This document shows, piece by piece, positions 761-53,118 of a stretch of DNA of 64,000 bases (positions are counted from its first letter, which is position 1; every line of letters begins with the position of its first letter). Under the pieces are notes generated by a model. It saw nothing but the letters and a program-made list of their open reading frames with translations. It ran no database searches and had not been told where the DNA came from. The DNA is from Rhodobacter calidifons (GTDB lineage Bacteria; Pseudomonadota; Alphaproteobacteria; Rhodobacterales; Rhodobacteraceae), in assembly GCF_011174775.1 (NCBI RefSeq), contig NZ_JAANHS010000002.1:186001-250000 (forward strand). The letters run 5' to 3'. Both the position numbers and the translations under genes were made by a program.

Positions 761-804
761 AAGTCCCTCCTGACCGTCACACCCGACGGCGGTTTGCTTC
801 CTTT

Positions 805-995
805 GCAGGGCCGGTCTCCTGGCTGGCGGATCGTGGAGGGTCTTCGCCTTCCCATCCCGTCGGGGACAGTGGCTTGTGAAGACCCGCTCACCGCTGACAG
901 TCGCGGGGGCGGCTGATGTCACGGACCCCCTGATGGGTAGGCCCGCTCCTCATTCCCGTTTCAGTCCCGGCGCTTTGCGCCTGATGGGACACCTT
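805..995 (-). promoter_or_regulatory. Cobalamin riboswitch upstream of the CbiM-like gene
   Basis: Reading the minus strand, the B12 box AGCCAGGAGACCGGCC is at about 825-809, preceded by GCCACTG at 873-867 and the GCCGCCCCCGCGACTGTCA core at about 911-893. A P2-like arm pair GTCCC...GGGAC enclosing GGCGC-AAA-GCGCC lies near 992-965. These are the conserved parts of an adenosylcobalamin aptamer. The ATG of the transporter is about 50 bases downstream, so control could be at translation or by premature termination. Ends are approximate. Confidence 0.9.
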
Positions 996-1054
996 GCCCT
1001 CCCTTCCTGCGCCTCTGGCGACGTCCGGTCAAGGAGGAAGGCGACTCCGCAGGG

Positions 1055-7911: not shown

Positions 7912-8537
7912 TCCTTCCGGCTGGCAAGGGCGTTGACTGCGGCCACGGTGATCGCCGACCCGCCGAGGCGGCCCTTGACGATCAGGGCGGGCGCGGGCGG
8001 GGCCGCCATCAGCGCGTCCTTCGACTCGGCGGCACCGACGAAGCCCACCGGGCAGCCGATGATCGCGGCGGGCCGGGGGCAGGCCGGGTCTTCCAGCATG
8101 TTCAGCAGGTGGAACAGCGCGGTGGGCGCATTGCCGATGGCGACGACGGCCCCGGCAAGGTGGGGCCGCCAGAGCTCGAGGGCGGCGGCGGAGCGGGTGT
8201 TCCGCATCTGCCGGGCCAGGTCCGGCACCTGCGGGTCGTGCAGGGTGCAGATGACCTGATTGTCCTTCGGCAGCCGGGCGCGGGTGATGCCCTCGCTGAC
8301 CATCCGCGCATCGCAGAGGATCGGCGCGCCGTCCTCCAGCGCCGCCCGGGCGGCGATGGCCATGCCGGGGCTGAACTGGATGTGGGGCGCCAGTTCCACC
8401 ATCCCGGCGGCGTGGATCATGCGGACGGCGACCACCTCTTCCTCGGGGGTGAAGCGGGAAAGGTCGGCCTCGGCCCGGATCATGGCGAAGCTCTGGGCGT
8501 AGATCGCGGCGCCGTCGGTTTCATAGAGGTGGGGCAT
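7908..8537 (-). CDS. cobH: Precorrin-8X methylmutase
   Basis: A 209-residue isomerase that moves the C-11 methyl group to C-12, converting precorrin-8X into hydrogenobyrinic acid. The catalytic histidine is in VRMIHAAGM (His42). The GAPILCDARMVSEGI, AIGNAPTALF and IIGCPVGFVGAAESK stretches are family signatures. It overlaps the 3' end of cobG by 17 bases, so its ribosome-binding site is within cobG, and it overlaps cobI by 4. Length is standard for CobH/CbiC. Confidence 0.95.
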   Translation of the reverse strand: MPHLYETDGAAIYAQSFAMIRAEADLSRFTPEEEVVAVRMIHAAGMVELAPHIQFSPGMAIAARAALEDGAPILCDARMVSEGITRARLPKDNQVICTLHDPQVPDLARQMRNTRSAAALELWRPHLAGAVVAIGNAPTALFHLLNMLEDPACPRPAAIIGCPVGFVGAAESKDALMAAPPAPALIVKGRLGGSAITVAAVNALASRKE

Positions 8538-9762
8538 GGAGGGCCTTCAGGTGGTTCAGGATCGCCTGCGGGGAAAGGCCCGTCAGGCTGGGCGTGTCAT
8601 GGGCGGTGCCGTGCCGGATCAGGACGTAGCCCTTGTCGGTGGCGGTAAGGGTCAGCGGCGCGGGGCCGGGATGGGCGCAGCCCTTGGCGCAGCCGGAGAG
8701 GTGCAGGCTCTGCCCGGGCGCGAGATGCGGGGCGATCTGTCTTGCAAGCTGGCGCGTGTCGCCCCTTGCCTGCGGGCAGGCGGGCGCGCCGGTGCAGGCG
8801 GTAATGCGCAGCATCGGGTCGGCCGGGTCGATGATGAGGCCGGCGATCTTCGGCAGCGTCGTTGCGCCCACGATCAGCAGCATCCGCCACGGCGTCGGGC
8901 GGATCTTGTGGCCGAGGGCGGCGAGGGCGCGCAGCGTCGCGGCCTGCATCTGGCCGAAGGCAAGGGCGACGAGCGCCCCGTCCGGGTGGAGACCGGGGGC
9001 TGGTGCAGGGAGCGGCTCGGCGGGGGCGAGGGTGCAGTCGGGCGGGACGATGCCACGGGCGATGAGGGCGGCCATGCGGCCCCGGCCGTTGCTGATGCCG
9101 CCATTGGCGACGAACCATTCGGCGATGGCGATGGTGTCGCGGGCAAGGTCGGTGACAGGCTGGCCGAGCGGGTGTCCGTCGGGGCGCAGGATCAGGCGGC
9201 CGTCGCGGCTGCGTTCGACGCGGATATCGGCGGAGGCCTCGGTCAGGACAGGGCGCGGGCCGGTGTCGAGGGCGAAGCCGAACTTGCCGGGCAGGCGCGG
9301 CATCCGGGCAAGGGCGGCGGTGAGGGTGGCGGCGAGAGTGTCGGTGGCGGTGGCGTCAAGGGATCCCCGTCCCGGGCTTGACCCGGGACCTCGTCCTTCG
9401 TCCAGCGTGCCCGGTCCCACGAGAGGTCCCGGGTCAAGCCCGGGACGGGGGGCGCGAAAAGGGGTGACGATCAGGTTGCGGAGGGATTCCGTCTGGATGT
9501 CGGGGTCGATCAATCCGTGGTGGCGCAGGTCGTCGATCAGTCGCGGATGGCTGGCCTCGGTCACGCCCCGCAGTTGCAGGTTGGCGCGGGCGGAGAGGTC
9601 GAGGATGCCGTTGCCGTGGGTTTCGGCGGCGTCAGCGATGGCTTGCGCCTGTTCGGGGGTCAGGCGGCCCTGGGGCGGGCGGATGCGGACCACGAGGCCA
9701 TCGCCGGATTGCATCGGGCGGAGTGCGCCGGGGCACCAGCCCTTGATCTCCCAGGCGGTCAT
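8521..9762 (-). CDS. cobG: Precorrin-3B synthase with an in-frame palindromic insertion
   Basis: A 413-residue iron-sulfur mono-oxygenase that converts precorrin-3A to precorrin-3B with O2, the defining step of the aerobic pathway. It has two ferredoxin/nitrite-sulfite-reductase-like halves and the [4Fe-4S] cysteines CTGAPACPQ and SGCAKGCAHP near the C-terminus. The ATG at 9762 (MTAWEIKGWCPGALRPM) is chosen because CobG starts there; the open frame upstream is repeat DNA. Residues about 105-133 (PRPGLDPGP ... GPGSSPGRG) are encoded by a palindromic element and do not look like CobG sequence. The frame is kept, so the protein is presumably functional. Confidence 0.92.
   Translation of the reverse strand: MTAWEIKGWCPGALRPMQSGDGLVVRIRPPQGRLTPEQAQAIADAAETHGNGILDLSARANLQLRGVTEASHPRLIDDLRHHGLIDPDIQTESLRNLIVTPFRAPRPGLDPGPLVGPGTLDEGRGPGSSPGRGSLDATATDTLAATLTAALARMPRLPGKFGFALDTGPRPVLTEASADIRVERSRDGRLILRPDGHPLGQPVTDLARDTIAIAEWFVANGGISNGRGRMAALIARGIVPPDCTLAPAEPLPAPAPGLHPDGALVALAFGQMQAATLRALAALGHKIRPTPWRMLLIVGATTLPKIAGLIIDPADPMLRITACTGAPACPQARGDTRQLARQIAPHLAPGQSLHLSGCAKGCAHPGPAPLTLTATDKGYVLIRHGTAHDTPSLTGLSPQAILNHLKALHAPPL
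9365..9450 (-). repeat. Palindromic element (family B) inserted in frame in cobG
   Basis: An 86-bp inverted repeat with arms CCCCGTCCCGGGCTTGACCC... and its complement at 9425-9450, around a non-palindromic centre. Each arm is itself nearly symmetric around CCCGGG-N5-CCCGGG. Read on the coding strand it gives RPGLDPGP, then a variable middle, then GPGSSPGR, without a stop. The same element in the same reading frame is inside cobN (12553-12636). Intergenic copies are at 13253-13316 and 27653-27722. Confidence 0.9.
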
Positions 9763-9910: not shown

Positions 9911-12900
9911 TCATGCGGCACCGTCGAGGCTTGCGGCGATGGAGTTGCGGCGGGTCTGCCAGAGGCCGGCGTCACGCAGGCGGCGGAAGAGGTCTTCCAT
10001 GGCGGCCAGGGCGGCGGGGTTTTCGCGGGCGAGGAAGTCGCGCACCTCGTCGCGGCCCAGGGTGGCCTCGTGGTAGAGGTCGAAGAGGTGCGGTGGGACC
10101 ACTTGGGCCAGATGGGCGAAGGCGGCCATGTGGTCCAGCGTGGCGGCGATTTCGGCGGCGCCGCGGAAGCCGTGGTGCATCATGCCTTCCGCCCAGGCCG
10201 GGTTGGCGGCCCGGGCGCGGGTGACGCGGGCGATTTCCTCGGTCAGGGTGCGGGCGTGGGGCGTGTCGGGGCGGGTGGAATCGAGGTGGTAGAGGGCGGG
10301 TCTCGCTCCGCCCAGTTTGGCGACGGCGGCGGCGAAGCCTGCCTCGTGCGCGGCGTAGTCGGCGGCGATGAGGACATCGGTCTCGGGCAGGTCCTGGGCG
10401 TGGACGAAGCTGTCGGCTGACAGGACTCGGGCTTCGAGGGCGGCGCGGGCCTCGGTGGACTGGCCGTCCTGGCCGATGGCCCAGGAGGACGCGTTGAGCC
10501 AGGCTTCACCGGCTGCGGCGCGGGCCTCGTCGGTGAAGGTCTCGGCGGCGGTGCCCATGCCAAGGCCGTAGAGGCCGGGTCTGGGGCCGAAGACGCGGGA
10601 GGCCCGCGTGGTATAGGGGTTGTCCTCGGGCGGTTCTTCCCTTCGGGACAGGGCTTCCGCCCCGGCCTCGAAAAGCTGGGCGAGCGTCGGGAACACGTCG
10701 CGGAACAGGCCGGAGACGCGGAGGGTGACGTCGATCCTCGGGCGGCCGAGAAGGGCGAGGGGGAGGATTTCGAAGCCGGAGACGCGGGCCGAGCCTTCGT
10801 CCCATTTCGGCGCGAGGCCCGCGAGGTGGAGGGCCATGGAGAATTCCTCACCCGCCGTGCGCATGGTCGCTGACCCCCAGAGGTCCACCACCAGCCCGCG
10901 CGGATAGTCGCCGTGGTCCTGGAGGTGGCGGCGGATCAGTTCCTCGGCCAGTTTCACGCCCTGGGCATGGGCGTTGCGTGAGGGGACGGCGCGGGGATCG
11001 ACGCTGAACAGGTTGCGGCCGGTGGGCAGCACGTCGCTGCGGCCGCGGTGCGGCGAGCCTGCGGGCCCGGGGGGGACGCGCTGGCCGTTCAGCGCGGCAA
11101 GAAGGCCCCGGGTCTCGCCCTCGCCGTCGCCGAAGATGTGCAGGCCGTGGCCGTATTGGCTTTCCTTCAGGTCGCAGACGAAGCGGTCGATGCGGGTGAT
11201 CGCCTCGGCCGGGGTGGCATTGGCGGACAGGCCGAGGTCGGCGGCCACGCCCGATGCCGCAGCCTCGTCGCGGATCGTGTCGATCAGGCGGCGGCGGCGG
11301 GCGGGGTCCAACCCGTCGGCGGTGGAATATTCGTCGAGGAGGCGTTCGAGGCGCTGGAGTTCAGGCGGGACCACGCTTTGCGTCAGCGGCGGCGGCAGGT
11401 GGCCGAGGGTCACGGCGCCGATGCGGCGCTTGGCTTGCGCCGCCTCGCCGGGGTCGTTGACGATGAAGGGGTAGATGACCGGGGTGGGGCCGATCAGCGC
11501 CTCGGGCCAGCAGGTATCCGACAGGGCGACGGATTTGCCCGGCAGCCATTCCAGCGTGCCATGCGCCCCCATGTGGATCAGGGCGTGCAGGGATTGCGAC
11601 CGGAGCCACAGGTAGAAGGCGACATAGGCGTGGCGCGGGGTGCGGGAGAGGTCGTGGTAGTCGCTGTCCCGGCTGGCAACCTCGCCGCGTTCGGGTTGCA
11701 GCGCGACGAGGACGTGGCCCCGGCGGGCGGCGGGGAAGTGGAACGCGCCGTCCTTTACCGAGGGATCGGTGGCGGGGTCGCCCCAGGCCTTGTGCAGGGT
11801 CCGGCGGAGGGTCTCGGGGAGAGTTGCGAGGGCGGCCTCATAGGCGGCGAGGGGCCAGGTGAGGGTTTCCGCCAGCGCCTGCGGCAGGGGTTGGCCTTCG
11901 GTGGCGTGATAGCCCTCGCCGGCGAGGGTTTCGAGGAGGCGCTCGGTCGAGGCCAGCGCGTCGAGGCCGACGGCATGGGCCATCTGATGCGGGCGCCCGG
12001 GATAGGTGGAGAGGATCACGGCAATGCGGCGGTCGGGTGCGGGGGTGGTGGCCAGGCGGTGCCAGTGTGTCACGCGATCGACCACGGCTTTGATGCGGCC
12101 CGCGTCGGCGCGGTGGGCGAAGCGGGAGAATTGCAGCTCCGGGTGGCGCTTGCCGGGGGACTTGTGGCTGACGATCCCCGCGAAGAGGCGGCCGTCCACC
12201 TCGGGCAGGACGACATGCATCGCAAGGTCGGCGGGAGAGAGGCCCCGGTCGGAGGCCGCCCAGTCGCGGCGGCGGTTGGTGGAAAGCGCGACCTGGAAGA
12301 CGGGGCAATGGGCGGCGTCGAAGGGGGTCCTGCCGGCATCGTCGCGGGCCGAGAAGGCGGTGGCGTTGACGATGGCGGCGGGCGGGTTTGCGGCGATTTG
12401 GGCCGACAGCCAGTCGGCGACGCCGGGGGCCTTGAGGCTCGGGGCGAAGGCGCCGTGGGCGGCGAAGCCTTCGGCGCGGAGGGCGTTGATCAGGGCATCG
12501 ACGGGCGCGGTGTCGCCCGAGGTGAGGTAGCTGCGGTAGAAGGTGACGAGAACCCGTCCCGGGCTTGACCCGGGACCTCCCCCGGTGGCCTGGGTGTCCG
12601 GTTCGCACAGAGGTCCCGGGTCAAGCCCGGGACGGGTATTCGCGGCGACCGGCGCGGGAATGACTCCCCGGTCGGGGTCGTAGAACCCCATCTGCGGCAC
12701 GGTCTTTTCGCCGATGACCGGGGCCGCGTAGAAGCCGGCCGCCAGCGCCAGTTGCGCAAGGGCCGCATGGGCCGCGACGGCCCCGCCCTCGTCGCACAGC
12801 GCCTGCAATCGGCGGAGGGTGGAGACGGGCAGCGTGGACAGCTCATCCAGGCGCGGATCGGGGCGGCCGTCGGCGGGAAGGATGGCAAGCGCAATGCCCT

Positions 12901-13225
12901 TGCGGCGGGCGAGGTCCTGGAGCGTGGCGAGGCCGTAGGGCCAGTAGGCCTCGCCCCCGATCAGTCGGACGAGGACGGCCTTTGCACCGCAGAGCGTGCG
13001 GTCGGCATAGCTGTCGACGGAAACCGGGTGCTTCAGCGCGATGATGTTGGCAAGCCGGACCGTGGGTTGGAAACCCAGCCTGCGGGCGCGCTCATAGCCT
13101 GCCGTGAAGGCCCCGAGGTCGCTGTCGGAGAACGAGAGCACCACCAGATCGGCCGGGTCCTGCCCGACGTCGAAGGGGGTCTCGGTTTCCTCCAGCCCGT
13201 GGCTTTCGCGGAAGACGACGTGCAT
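9911..13225 (-). CDS. cobN: Aerobic cobaltochelatase large subunit with an in-frame palindromic insertion
   Basis: A 1104-residue CobN/BchH-type chelatase subunit. With CobS and CobT (not in this window) it inserts Co(II) into hydrogenobyrinic acid a,c-diamide using ATP. Family stretches include LVRLIGGEAYWPYG, HMGAHGTLEWLPGKSVALSD, QYGHGLHIFGDG and VVDLWGSATMRTAGEEFSMALHL. Residues about 197-224 (TRPGLDPGP ... GPGSSPGRV) come from a palindromic repeat inserted in frame, just before VLVTFYRSYLTSGDTAPVDAL. It follows cobW after a 148-base gap containing another copy of that palindrome. Start at 13225 (MHVVFRESHGLEE) agrees with the family. Confidence 0.94.
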   Translation of the reverse strand: MHVVFRESHGLEETETPFDVGQDPADLVVLSFSDSDLGAFTAGYERARRLGFQPTVRLANIIALKHPVSVDSYADRTLCGAKAVLVRLIGGEAYWPYGLATLQDLARRKGIALAILPADGRPDPRLDELSTLPVSTLRRLQALCDEGGAVAAHAALAQLALAAGFYAAPVIGEKTVPQMGFYDPDRGVIPAPVAANTRPGLDPGPLCEPDTQATGGGPGSSPGRVLVTFYRSYLTSGDTAPVDALINALRAEGFAAHGAFAPSLKAPGVADWLSAQIAANPPAAIVNATAFSARDDAGRTPFDAAHCPVFQVALSTNRRRDWAASDRGLSPADLAMHVVLPEVDGRLFAGIVSHKSPGKRHPELQFSRFAHRADAGRIKAVVDRVTHWHRLATTPAPDRRIAVILSTYPGRPHQMAHAVGLDALASTERLLETLAGEGYHATEGQPLPQALAETLTWPLAAYEAALATLPETLRRTLHKAWGDPATDPSVKDGAFHFPAARRGHVLVALQPERGEVASRDSDYHDLSRTPRHAYVAFYLWLRSQSLHALIHMGAHGTLEWLPGKSVALSDTCWPEALIGPTPVIYPFIVNDPGEAAQAKRRIGAVTLGHLPPPLTQSVVPPELQRLERLLDEYSTADGLDPARRRRLIDTIRDEAAASGVAADLGLSANATPAEAITRIDRFVCDLKESQYGHGLHIFGDGEGETRGLLAALNGQRVPPGPAGSPHRGRSDVLPTGRNLFSVDPRAVPSRNAHAQGVKLAEELIRRHLQDHGDYPRGLVVDLWGSATMRTAGEEFSMALHLAGLAPKWDEGSARVSGFEILPLALLGRPRIDVTLRVSGLFRDVFPTLAQLFEAGAEALSRREEPPEDNPYTTRASRVFGPRPGLYGLGMGTAAETFTDEARAAAGEAWLNASSWAIGQDGQSTEARAALEARVLSADSFVHAQDLPETDVLIAADYAAHEAGFAAAVAKLGGARPALYHLDSTRPDTPHARTLTEEIARVTRARAANPAWAEGMMHHGFRGAAEIAATLDHMAAFAHLAQVVPPHLFDLYHEATLGRDEVRDFLARENPAALAAMEDLFRRLRDAGLWQTRRNSIAASLDGAA
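12553..12636 (-). repeat. Palindromic element (family B) inserted in frame in cobN
   Basis: An 84-bp inverted repeat whose outer 25-base arms are complementary (CCCGTCCCGGGCTTGACCCG at 12553 and its complement ending at 12636). On the cobN strand the arms read RPGLDPGP and GPGSSPGR, the same frame and same residues as in cobG. The middle (LCEPDTQATGG) differs from the cobG copy, showing that the arms rather than the loop are conserved. Confidence 0.9.
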
Positions 13226-13252: not shown

Positions 13253-13316
13253 CCCGCCCCGGGCCTGACCCGGGGCCTCGTGGCAAGGCAGAGGTCCCGG
13301 GTCGAGCCCGGGACGC
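13253..13316. repeat. Palindromic element (family B), intergenic copy between cobW and cobN
   Basis: A 64-bp inverted repeat with arms CCCGCCCCGGGCCTGACCCG and CGGGTCGAGCCCGGGACG around a short centre. It belongs to the same family as the in-frame copies in cobG and cobN but has diverged arms. It lies in the 148-base cobW-cobN gap, where it could act as a processing or attenuation hairpin. No gene fits in the gap. Confidence 0.85.
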
Positions 13317-14779: not shown

Positions 14780-14867
14780 CGTTGCCTTCCAATAGGCGAA
14801 AAGGGTGGGCCAGCGAGGGGCGTTTCCGCCGATCACCGGTCGCGGAACACCCCGTCCGCCGGTTGCC

Positions 14868-15044
14868 GTTCACGCTGGCAGGTCTCCCGGCTTGCGGATA
14901 CTGGGTCTCCCCAACAGCCCCCGCCTTCCCGGCATCCGCCAGTGGCCATGGGACCTCTCCGGTCACGGTCGCGGGGGCGGCTGCTTCGGGTCGTTTCCGA
15001 CCTGTCGCATTCCCTCTTCGCCTGTCATAAACAGGAACCAGCGC
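14868..15044 (-). promoter_or_regulatory. Cobalamin riboswitch controlling the DUF1636-cobW-cobN-cobGHIJ operon
   Basis: On the minus strand the order is: GGTTCCTG near 15039, GACAGGCGAAGAGGGAATGCG, GCAGCCGCCCCCGCGAC at about 14986-14970, GGCCACTGGCGGATGCCGGG, and the B12 box AAGCCGGGAGACCTGCC at 14890-14874. All conserved core elements of the aptamer are present. The operon's first ATG is about 95 bases downstream. cobO starts divergently 50 bases beyond the 5' end and is not covered by it. Confidence 0.93.
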
Positions 15045-15093
15045 CAGTCCACCTGAGCCATGGCACCCCCCCTTGTCAAGGACACGACCGACC

Positions 15094-27652: not shown

Positions 27653-27722
27653 CCCGTCCCGGGCCTGACCCGGGACCTCCCGGCATCTCTCGGAGAGGCC
27701 CCGGGTCAGGCCCGGGGCGGGG
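27653..27722. repeat. Palindromic element (family B), intergenic copy between rmuC and the hutD-like gene
   Basis: A 70-bp inverted repeat with arms CCCGTCCCGGGCCTGACCCG and CGGGTCAGGCCCGGGGCGGG around CTCCCGGCATCTCTCGGAGA, the centre being itself partly palindromic. It fills the gap between the rmuC stop and the hutD-like start. Same family as the in-frame copies in cobG and cobN. Confidence 0.88.
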
Positions 27723-35617: not shown

Positions 35618-36604
35618 TCAGTCAGTCCCCATCAGGTGCAGGGCGTTGCGGTCGAAGGCGATGGCGGTCGTGGTGCCTTCGGGCGGAACCGGCTGGCCGG
35701 CAGGGACAAGGGCGGCGATCTCGGTCTCGCCCGCGCGGATCACGACGCGCGTGCCGGCGCCGAGGTAGCGCAGCGCAATGACGGTGCCGCTGACCGGGCC
35801 GGTCTGGGCAAGCCGGGTGGCCTCGGGGCGCAGGGAGGCCCATTGGGCGGGGCCTCCGAGGGCCCGGGTCAGCTCCGGGGGCAGCACGTTGGAGGAGCCG
35901 ACGAAATCTGCCACGAACCGCGTGGCGGGGCGGTCGTAGATGTCCTGCGGGGTGCCGATCTGGGCGATCCGGCCTTCGTTGAACACGGCCAGGTGGTCGG
36001 CCATCGACAGGGCCTCGTGCTGGTCATGGGTGACGAAGACGAAGGTCAGCCCCAGCTTGTGCTGGAGCGCCTTGAGTTCGTCCTGCATCGCCTCGCGCAG
36101 CTTCAGGTCCAGCGCGCCCAGGGGTTCGTCCAGCAGCAGCACCCGGGGTTCGTTGACCAGGGCGCGGGCCAGGGCCACGCGCTGGCGCTGGCCGCCGGAA
36201 AGCTGGGCGGGCTTGCGGTCGCCGTAGCCCTCCAGCTTGACCAGCGCGAGCATCTCTTCGGCCCGGGCATGGCGGCGGGCGCGGCCCATGCCCTTGACCA
36301 TCAGCCCGTAGGCCACGTTGTCGCGCACGTTCATGTGCGGGAACAGCGCATAGTCCTGGAACACCGTGTTCACGTTGCGCAGATGCGGGGGCGTCGCCGA
36401 AACGTCCTCGCCGAAGATGCGGATCGCGCCGGTCGTGGGCTTTTCGAACCCCGAGATCAGCCGCAGGCAGGTGGTCTTGCCCGACCCCGAGGGGCCGAGC
36501 ATGGCGAAGAAGGACCCTTCGACGATGGTCAGGTCCACGCCATCGACGGCCTTCACCGGGCCGAAATGGCGGGAAACATTGGCGAATTCGACGGCAGGGG
36601 TCAT
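35618..36604 (-). CDS. Polyamine-type ABC transporter ATP-binding protein (YdcT/PotA-like)
   Basis: A 328-residue ATPase: Walker [13 protein letters not shown] near residue 38, Q-loop [11 protein letters not shown], signature LSGGQRQR, Walker [13 protein letters not shown], switch His in VTHDQHEA, and a C-terminal TOBE domain (about 250-328). It energises the YdcUV-like channel. Start ATG 36604 ([15 protein letters not shown]) fits the family; the 90-base gap to the binding-protein gene is normal. Confidence 0.92.
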
Positions 36605-53014: not shown

Positions 53015-53118
53015 TCCTCATGCACGGGTTGTGCAGCAAGTTCCCCTGGTCGCGTCGGGGTTATGGCGCGGCATCCTCCCTGTTGGACCTGGCCGGGCTT
53101 CGTGCCCGGCCTTTTTTC
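53015..53118 (+). ncRNA. Candidate small RNA between the response regulator and xth
   Basis: In the 256-base gap there is a compact series of stems: TGCAC-GGGTT-GTGCA (about 53021-53035), CCCC...GGGG (about 53044-53060), an unpaired CATCCTCCCTG stretch, and a strong terminator at 53091-53117. A possible promoter is TTATTG (about 52986) and TACCTT (about 53009) with 17 bases between. The terminator is 173 bases after the regulator stop, and no open frame uses the interval. Could instead be the 3' UTR of the regulator mRNA. Confidence 0.5.
53091..53117 (+). terminator. Strong rho-independent terminator
   Basis: GGCCGGGC-TTCGT-GCCCGGCC (53091-53111) followed by TTTTTT. An 8-bp all-GC stem upstream of xth; ends the candidate sRNA and/or the response-regulator transcript. 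Confidence 0.93.

Follow-up and report, generated by a model that had tools for sequence, protein, structure and literature searches.

The window analysed here, a stretch of 64,000 nucleotides from Rhodobacter calidifons, carries the adjacent genes cobG and cobN, both of which contain an inverted repeat translated in frame (Table 1). The cobG frame starts with an ATG at 9762 and ends with a stop codon at 8521-8523, on the minus strand, and its product scores 274.5 bits against the CobG profile TIGR02435, for a cut-off of 234.8. A cobalamin riboswitch lies at each end of the cob region, and a SorX small RNA is found elsewhere in the window.

Table 1. Features of the window discussed in the text, in window positions.
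Feature	Position	Strand	Basis or remark
cobG (precorrin-3B synthase), host gene	8521..9762	-	TIGR02435 above cut-off; ORF list
Net in-frame insert in cobG, 32 codons, APRPGLDPGPLVGPGTLDEGRGPGSSPGRGSL	9358..9453	-	Protein and DNA alignments; pLDDT <50 at residues 108-134
Doublet arm 1, itself a hairpin	9365..9392	+	
Doublet spacer, 30 nt	9393..9422	+	Identical in T. thermarum cobG, unlike other window copies
Doublet arm 2, inverted	9423..9450	+	
cobN (cobaltochelatase subunit), second host gene	9911..13225	-	NF008973 and TIGR02257 above cut-off
Doublet inside cobN, frame as in cobG	12556..12633	-	pLDDT <50 at residues 196-218
Short-spacer doublet between cobN and upstream gene	13256..13314	.	
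Fourth doublet of the window, intergenic	27656..27718	.	
Cobalamin riboswitch	792-1011	-	RF00174
Cobalamin riboswitch	14860-15057	-	RF00174
SorX small RNA	53043-53117	+	RF02784

The inverted repeat described at 9365-9450 in the initial annotation is real, with arms of 28 nt that are 100% complementary and 30 nt apart, and the cobG frame indeed runs through it without a stop codon. The same annotation proposed that it adds about 28 residues to the protein: the insertion was borne out, but the net gain over empty homologues, relative to which its boundaries (about 9358-9453) were set, amounts to 32 codons, or 96 nt. The suggested alignment with other CobG proteins was carried out on 132 rows, 80 of them named loci and 52 retrieved by searching genomes, after removal of 7 loci that were partial, duplicate or not CobG. 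The CobG proteins compared from outside the genus lack the insert, with both flanks alignable. The gap between the anchors spans 43 residues in the window protein; it is at most 14 residues in 118 of the 132 rows and 18 in one, and the 13 longer rows (at least 24 residues) correspond to 7 species of the genus, six of them present twice. CobG searches returned matches in 54 of 149 genomes of the family and 27 of 32 of the genus, many of which, in both sets, consist of two pieces separated at about query residues 103 and 139. Nothing was found in favour of reading this segment as ordinary CobG sequence, and with homologues interrupted between residue 103 and about residue 139, this reading was rejected as having practically no chance of being correct. 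Neither is the repeat a product of chance, because the fold of the insert as RNA (-79 kcal/mol) is far below that of shuffled sequences (-46.4 +/- 3.8) and because the core of the arm has 66 matches, at two mismatches at most, in the 3.62-Mb genome, versus 6 for the reversed control. No Pfam or NCBIfam match was confined to the insert, and no Rfam match fell on it. Between this genome and that of Tabrizicola thermarum, 59 of 1230 nt of cobG differ overall, and none of the 96 nt of the insert, while the flanks display a dS of about 0.094 and a dN of about 0.036. The identical insert is more conserved than plain neutrality predicts, with gene conversion or constraint as possible causes.

The arm-encoded residues recur in cobN, as first noticed by the initial annotation: identical 21-nt arms (12556-12576 and 12613-12633) read TRPGLDPGP...GPGSSPGR. 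At the site upstream of cobN, T. thermarum is without 54 nt, ending at a CCCG common to both breakpoints, which looks like a slipped deletion, given that another genome of the genus (G152) has the full doublet there.

Although the 86-bp palindrome is a perfect inverted repeat, it is not itself the unit: the element consists of 29-nt hairpin repeats paired as an inverted doublet. The arm consensus, (C)CCCG[C/T]CCCGGRCYTGAYCCGGGRCCTC, forms an 8-bp hairpin with a 5-nt loop, CYTGA. Pairing is better kept within arms (1368 Watson-Crick, 1 wobble and 7 unpaired, out of 1376) than between arms (1648 Watson-Crick, 76 wobble and 82 mismatched, out of 1806), and the two arms are unlike in 53 of 86 distinct doublets, which designates the single hairpin as the conserved unit. 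The stem pair -1/17, whose positions are outside the search pattern, covaries, being C-G in 111 and T-A in 59 of 172 arms. The element, hereafter repeat A, is thus classed from its sequence as a REP-type repeat organised in inverted doublets. With at most one mismatch allowed over both arms together, 88 doublets were collected from 15 of the 16 doublet-bearing genomes of the genus, which were examined for context (both sites of G176, and one of the two in G171, were left out). They fall into two spacer classes, with arm offsets of 36-42 (57 doublets) and 54-60 (31 doublets). Doublets lie mainly just downstream of genes: 42 are between unidirectional, 18 between convergent and 2 between divergent genes, 13 are unclear and 13 are genic, including two calls (G152 cobN and G155 nnr) that scored too low for automatic detection and were included manually. 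Of 390 genomes sampled across the order, 47 contain the exact doublet pattern, in 29 of 139 genera; a search of plasmid and phage records (E 1e-3) gave no match to the element. Tandem 24-nt expansions of one arm, up to five copies, were also seen between genes and once inside glyS (L049 contig C22:338741-338911, and also C56:42075, C56:58067, C57:112399 and C55:19212).

Occupancy of the cobG site was clearly variable among close relatives. In the 24 genomes of the genus that are readable there, repeat A is present in two (R. calidifons and T. thermarum), a second repeat, B, in three (G150, G154 and G163), another perfect hairpin in one (G151, T. flagellatus) and a remnant in one (G164); the remaining 17 have none of these, one of them with 4 extra residues. 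A hairpin kept as an RNA element, regulating the cob operon or stabilising its mRNA, would be in line with the very stable fold of the insert, with the riboswitches at both ends of the region and with the location of most copies just downstream of genes, as expected of transcript-end elements, but these 17 genomes do without any such hairpin insert in cobG, and we consider this explanation quite improbable. As regards the CobN site, 22 rows were readable (5 of 27 were dropped, being out of frame or without both sides): A stands alone in 2, A next to B in 2, B in 7 and half of B in 2, while 9 are empty. In T. thermarum the CobG site carries A and the CobN site B, and in the CobN of G163 and G152 an A doublet adjoins the right half of B. 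Like A, repeat B is dispersed, with 22, 12, 21, 29 and 16 matches to its unit pattern in five genomes (three mismatches at most) and none for the control. In alignments of 64 of the 81 CobG and 55 of the 71 CobN sequences available, the rare insertions of at least 6 residues occur at one position only, and a Frigidibacter CobN carries, where the CobN inserts lie, an arm-like stretch of eight residues, RPGPDPGP. The sharing of these loops by unrelated repeats shows where CobG and CobN are likely to tolerate insertions; the number of independent insertions is uncertain, since the species tree is weakly supported. The T. flagellatus hairpin (L249:4335-4360) is A+T-rich, perfect and in frame at the same CobG site. 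Over 2.07 Mb of loci it has no other occurrence (a match in L113 comes from the species of L249 itself), and it has none in plasmids; it is therefore not established as a repeat family.

The structure models place both inserts in predicted low-confidence loops. In the AlphaFold2 model of CobG (mean pLDDT 86.4), the segment given in Table 1 is the only one of at least 3 residues below 50, and in that of CobN (mean 83.0) it is one of three; the scarcity of alignment rows covering the insert also contributes to such low scores. These loops bear on another explanation, according to which the sites are hot spots of the DNA, where repeats enter or replace earlier palindromes without being sorted by protein tolerance. 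Alternation of A and B also at the intergenic site upstream of cobN, together with the A doublet found beside the right half of B in the CobN of G163 and G152, points in that direction; the location of both cob sites in low-confidence loops argues against it, as do valS and glyS, which carry A where relatives have an ordinary loop or nothing, with no B seen. We regard such hot spots as possible, though doubtful.

The genome-wide search for the arm, which had also been suggested, revealed doublets inside cobG, cobN, valS, glyS and nnr of this genome, and single arms in carB and nrdJ. When compared with a solved homologue, the glyS insert falls between two well-aligned stretches (query 416 and 451, chain 417 and 420). 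The glyS site is empty in 24 of 29 loci of the genus and holds A in R. calidifons and T. thermarum, the former having one arm more than the latter, i.e., 24 nt or exactly eight codons. In valS, A is present in the same two species, and most relatives have another loop at that place; a genome from another genus bears a doublet with nearly the same spacer inside an ORF of 1098 aa, a putative valS. Comparison with a solved homologue places the single arm of carB in a linker for which E. coli CarB has a shorter counterpart. A further candidate, an ORF spanning window position 35863, contains a single arm with one mismatch and without flanking palindrome; it was judged to be due to chance and was not counted.

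Of the three reading frames of the left arm, one is closed by a TGA and two are open: the frame reading RPGLDPGP is used in cobG, cobN and valS, and that reading VPGLTRDL in nnr and glyS. At 11 gene ends the TGA of an arm provides the stop codon; 8 of these represent one orthologous site in four genomes. The initial annotation had raised the idea that the element is selected to use a stop-free frame. This idea was not upheld: genic copies use both open frames (3 and 2 genes), so that there is no sign of a preferred frame among the five independent host genes on which the comparison rests, and the closed frame supplies gene stops. Purging of gene-breaking copies explains the frame pattern without selection on the element. 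As for spacers, 11 of 31 long-spacer doublets are genic, versus 2 of 57 short-spacer ones (one-sided Fisher test, 1.2e-4); once orthologous sites are merged, which joined some neighbouring sites, the figures become 4 of 11 versus 1 of 28 (p 0.017), an excess that rests on few sites. This excess inside genes, as well as the tandem arm expansions of 24 nt, a multiple of three, would be in line with a selfish coding palindrome tuned for translation, whose open frames and long-spacer form are adaptations to genic life. However, the spacer contrast weakens upon merging, genic copies are split over the two open frames, arms expand by 24 nt between genes as well, and 75 of 88 doublets are not genic, which makes such tuning unlikely.

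Taken with these alternatives, insertion of the REP-type repeat A, whose usual place is just downstream of genes, into insertion-tolerant loops of cobG and cobN is in our view the highly probable explanation. From a mechanistic point of view, a copy of family A, as an inverted pair of 29-nt hairpin units, would insert into a loop of cobG or cobN that tolerates extra residues. Copies that shift the frame or bring a stop codon would be removed by selection, so that the length of the survivors would be a multiple of three and their frame either of the open ones, and the insert would be close to neutral for the enzyme. Repeat families may then come and go at these loops, gained through insertion and lost when the palindrome is removed by slipped deletion, and different families would alternate at the same loops because these would stay the only tolerated places. 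No clear target duplication was found at the cobG insert. More tentatively, and with less than even confidence, the CobG and CobN loops may constitute standing landing pads, where unrelated palindromic repeats recur, expand in steps of 8 codons and are deleted, and the long-spacer form may have spread because it is suited to genes. In that case, a given loop would bear one foreign peptide in one species and another in its sister species.

REPINs, which are linked to RAYTs, consist like repeat A of two inverted hairpin repeats with a spacer, and move as a doublet. By contrast, a search for a RAYT (Y1_Tnp) as the mover of repeat A gave no match over the cut-off in the 32 genomes of the genus, and two weak matches below it, for a control signal in 5 of 14 genomes. 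REPs of the CGTC superfamily (Di Nocera et al., 2013; PMC3733652) form inverted dimers, have intragenic copies, including in tRNA synthetases, and lack a dedicated transposase; in a single instance, two Xanthomonas species are reported there to hold distinct REPs at nearly one position of recB, and neither Rhodobacter nor Paracoccus is mentioned in the text of that article. Repeat A resembles them in its inverted dimers, its alphaproteobacterial host, its location mostly downstream of genes and its few genic copies, some in tRNA synthetases. Its stem of 8 bp and loop of 5 nt also fall within the CGTC ranges (8-9 bp and 4-5 nt). The unpaired tag of the CGTC type (CGTC, TGTC or CCTC at one end) is nevertheless missing, since the CG[C/T]C of A, at -3..0, lies inside the stem, where the pair -2/18 is G-C in 164 of 172 arms. 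Likewise, the stem of A starts with G-C, then C-G or T-A, instead of having A-T in the first two pairs, and its tail after the stem is CTC (C 169, T 164 and C 170 of 175 arms) instead of CCA-like. These differences in tag, stem start and tail set A apart from the CGTC type. Head-to-head dimers prevail in the CGTC superfamily; inverted doublets are the rule among the A copies collected, by a search pattern that required them, and the absence of a tag prevents head and tail from being fixed.

In-frame palindromic elements of Rickettsia were reportedly described by Ogata et al. in 2000 and 2002. The likeness to these elements put forward initially holds insofar as a palindrome is translated in frame in unrelated genes (the five with doublets, and the two with single arms); they are not the sole comparator, as intragenic REPs in general are another (PMC3733652). 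The Rickettsia elements, treated in PMC10969869 and PMC3733652, are about 150 bp long according to a review. Judged by such descriptions, repeat A differs from them in host and in its smaller insert of 32 residues, and probably in sequence. The QMITE elements of Coxiella share with A the inverted-repeat structure and the occasional in-frame extension or interruption of ORFs, but they are 150-400 bp long and have direct repeats (PMC5896051). Repeat A is thus, to judge by sequence comparison, a separate REP-type family of Tabrizicola-group bacteria with shared intragenic sites. Intragenic REPs have already been described; it is the shared intragenic sites that are new. Among the open-licence papers listed by literature searches, none reported this repeat in the genus.

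How proteins cope with dispersed repeats is a long-standing question, raised by intragenic REPs and the Rickettsia elements. Here, in two adjacent genes and in the same codon neighbourhood, close free-living relatives carry different repeats, remnants or nothing. This natural series of insertions and deletions offers the perspective of measuring their effect on a defined enzyme pathway. It should also be noted, for annotation purposes, that peptides of the GPGSSPGR type in proteins of this group are translated repeats.
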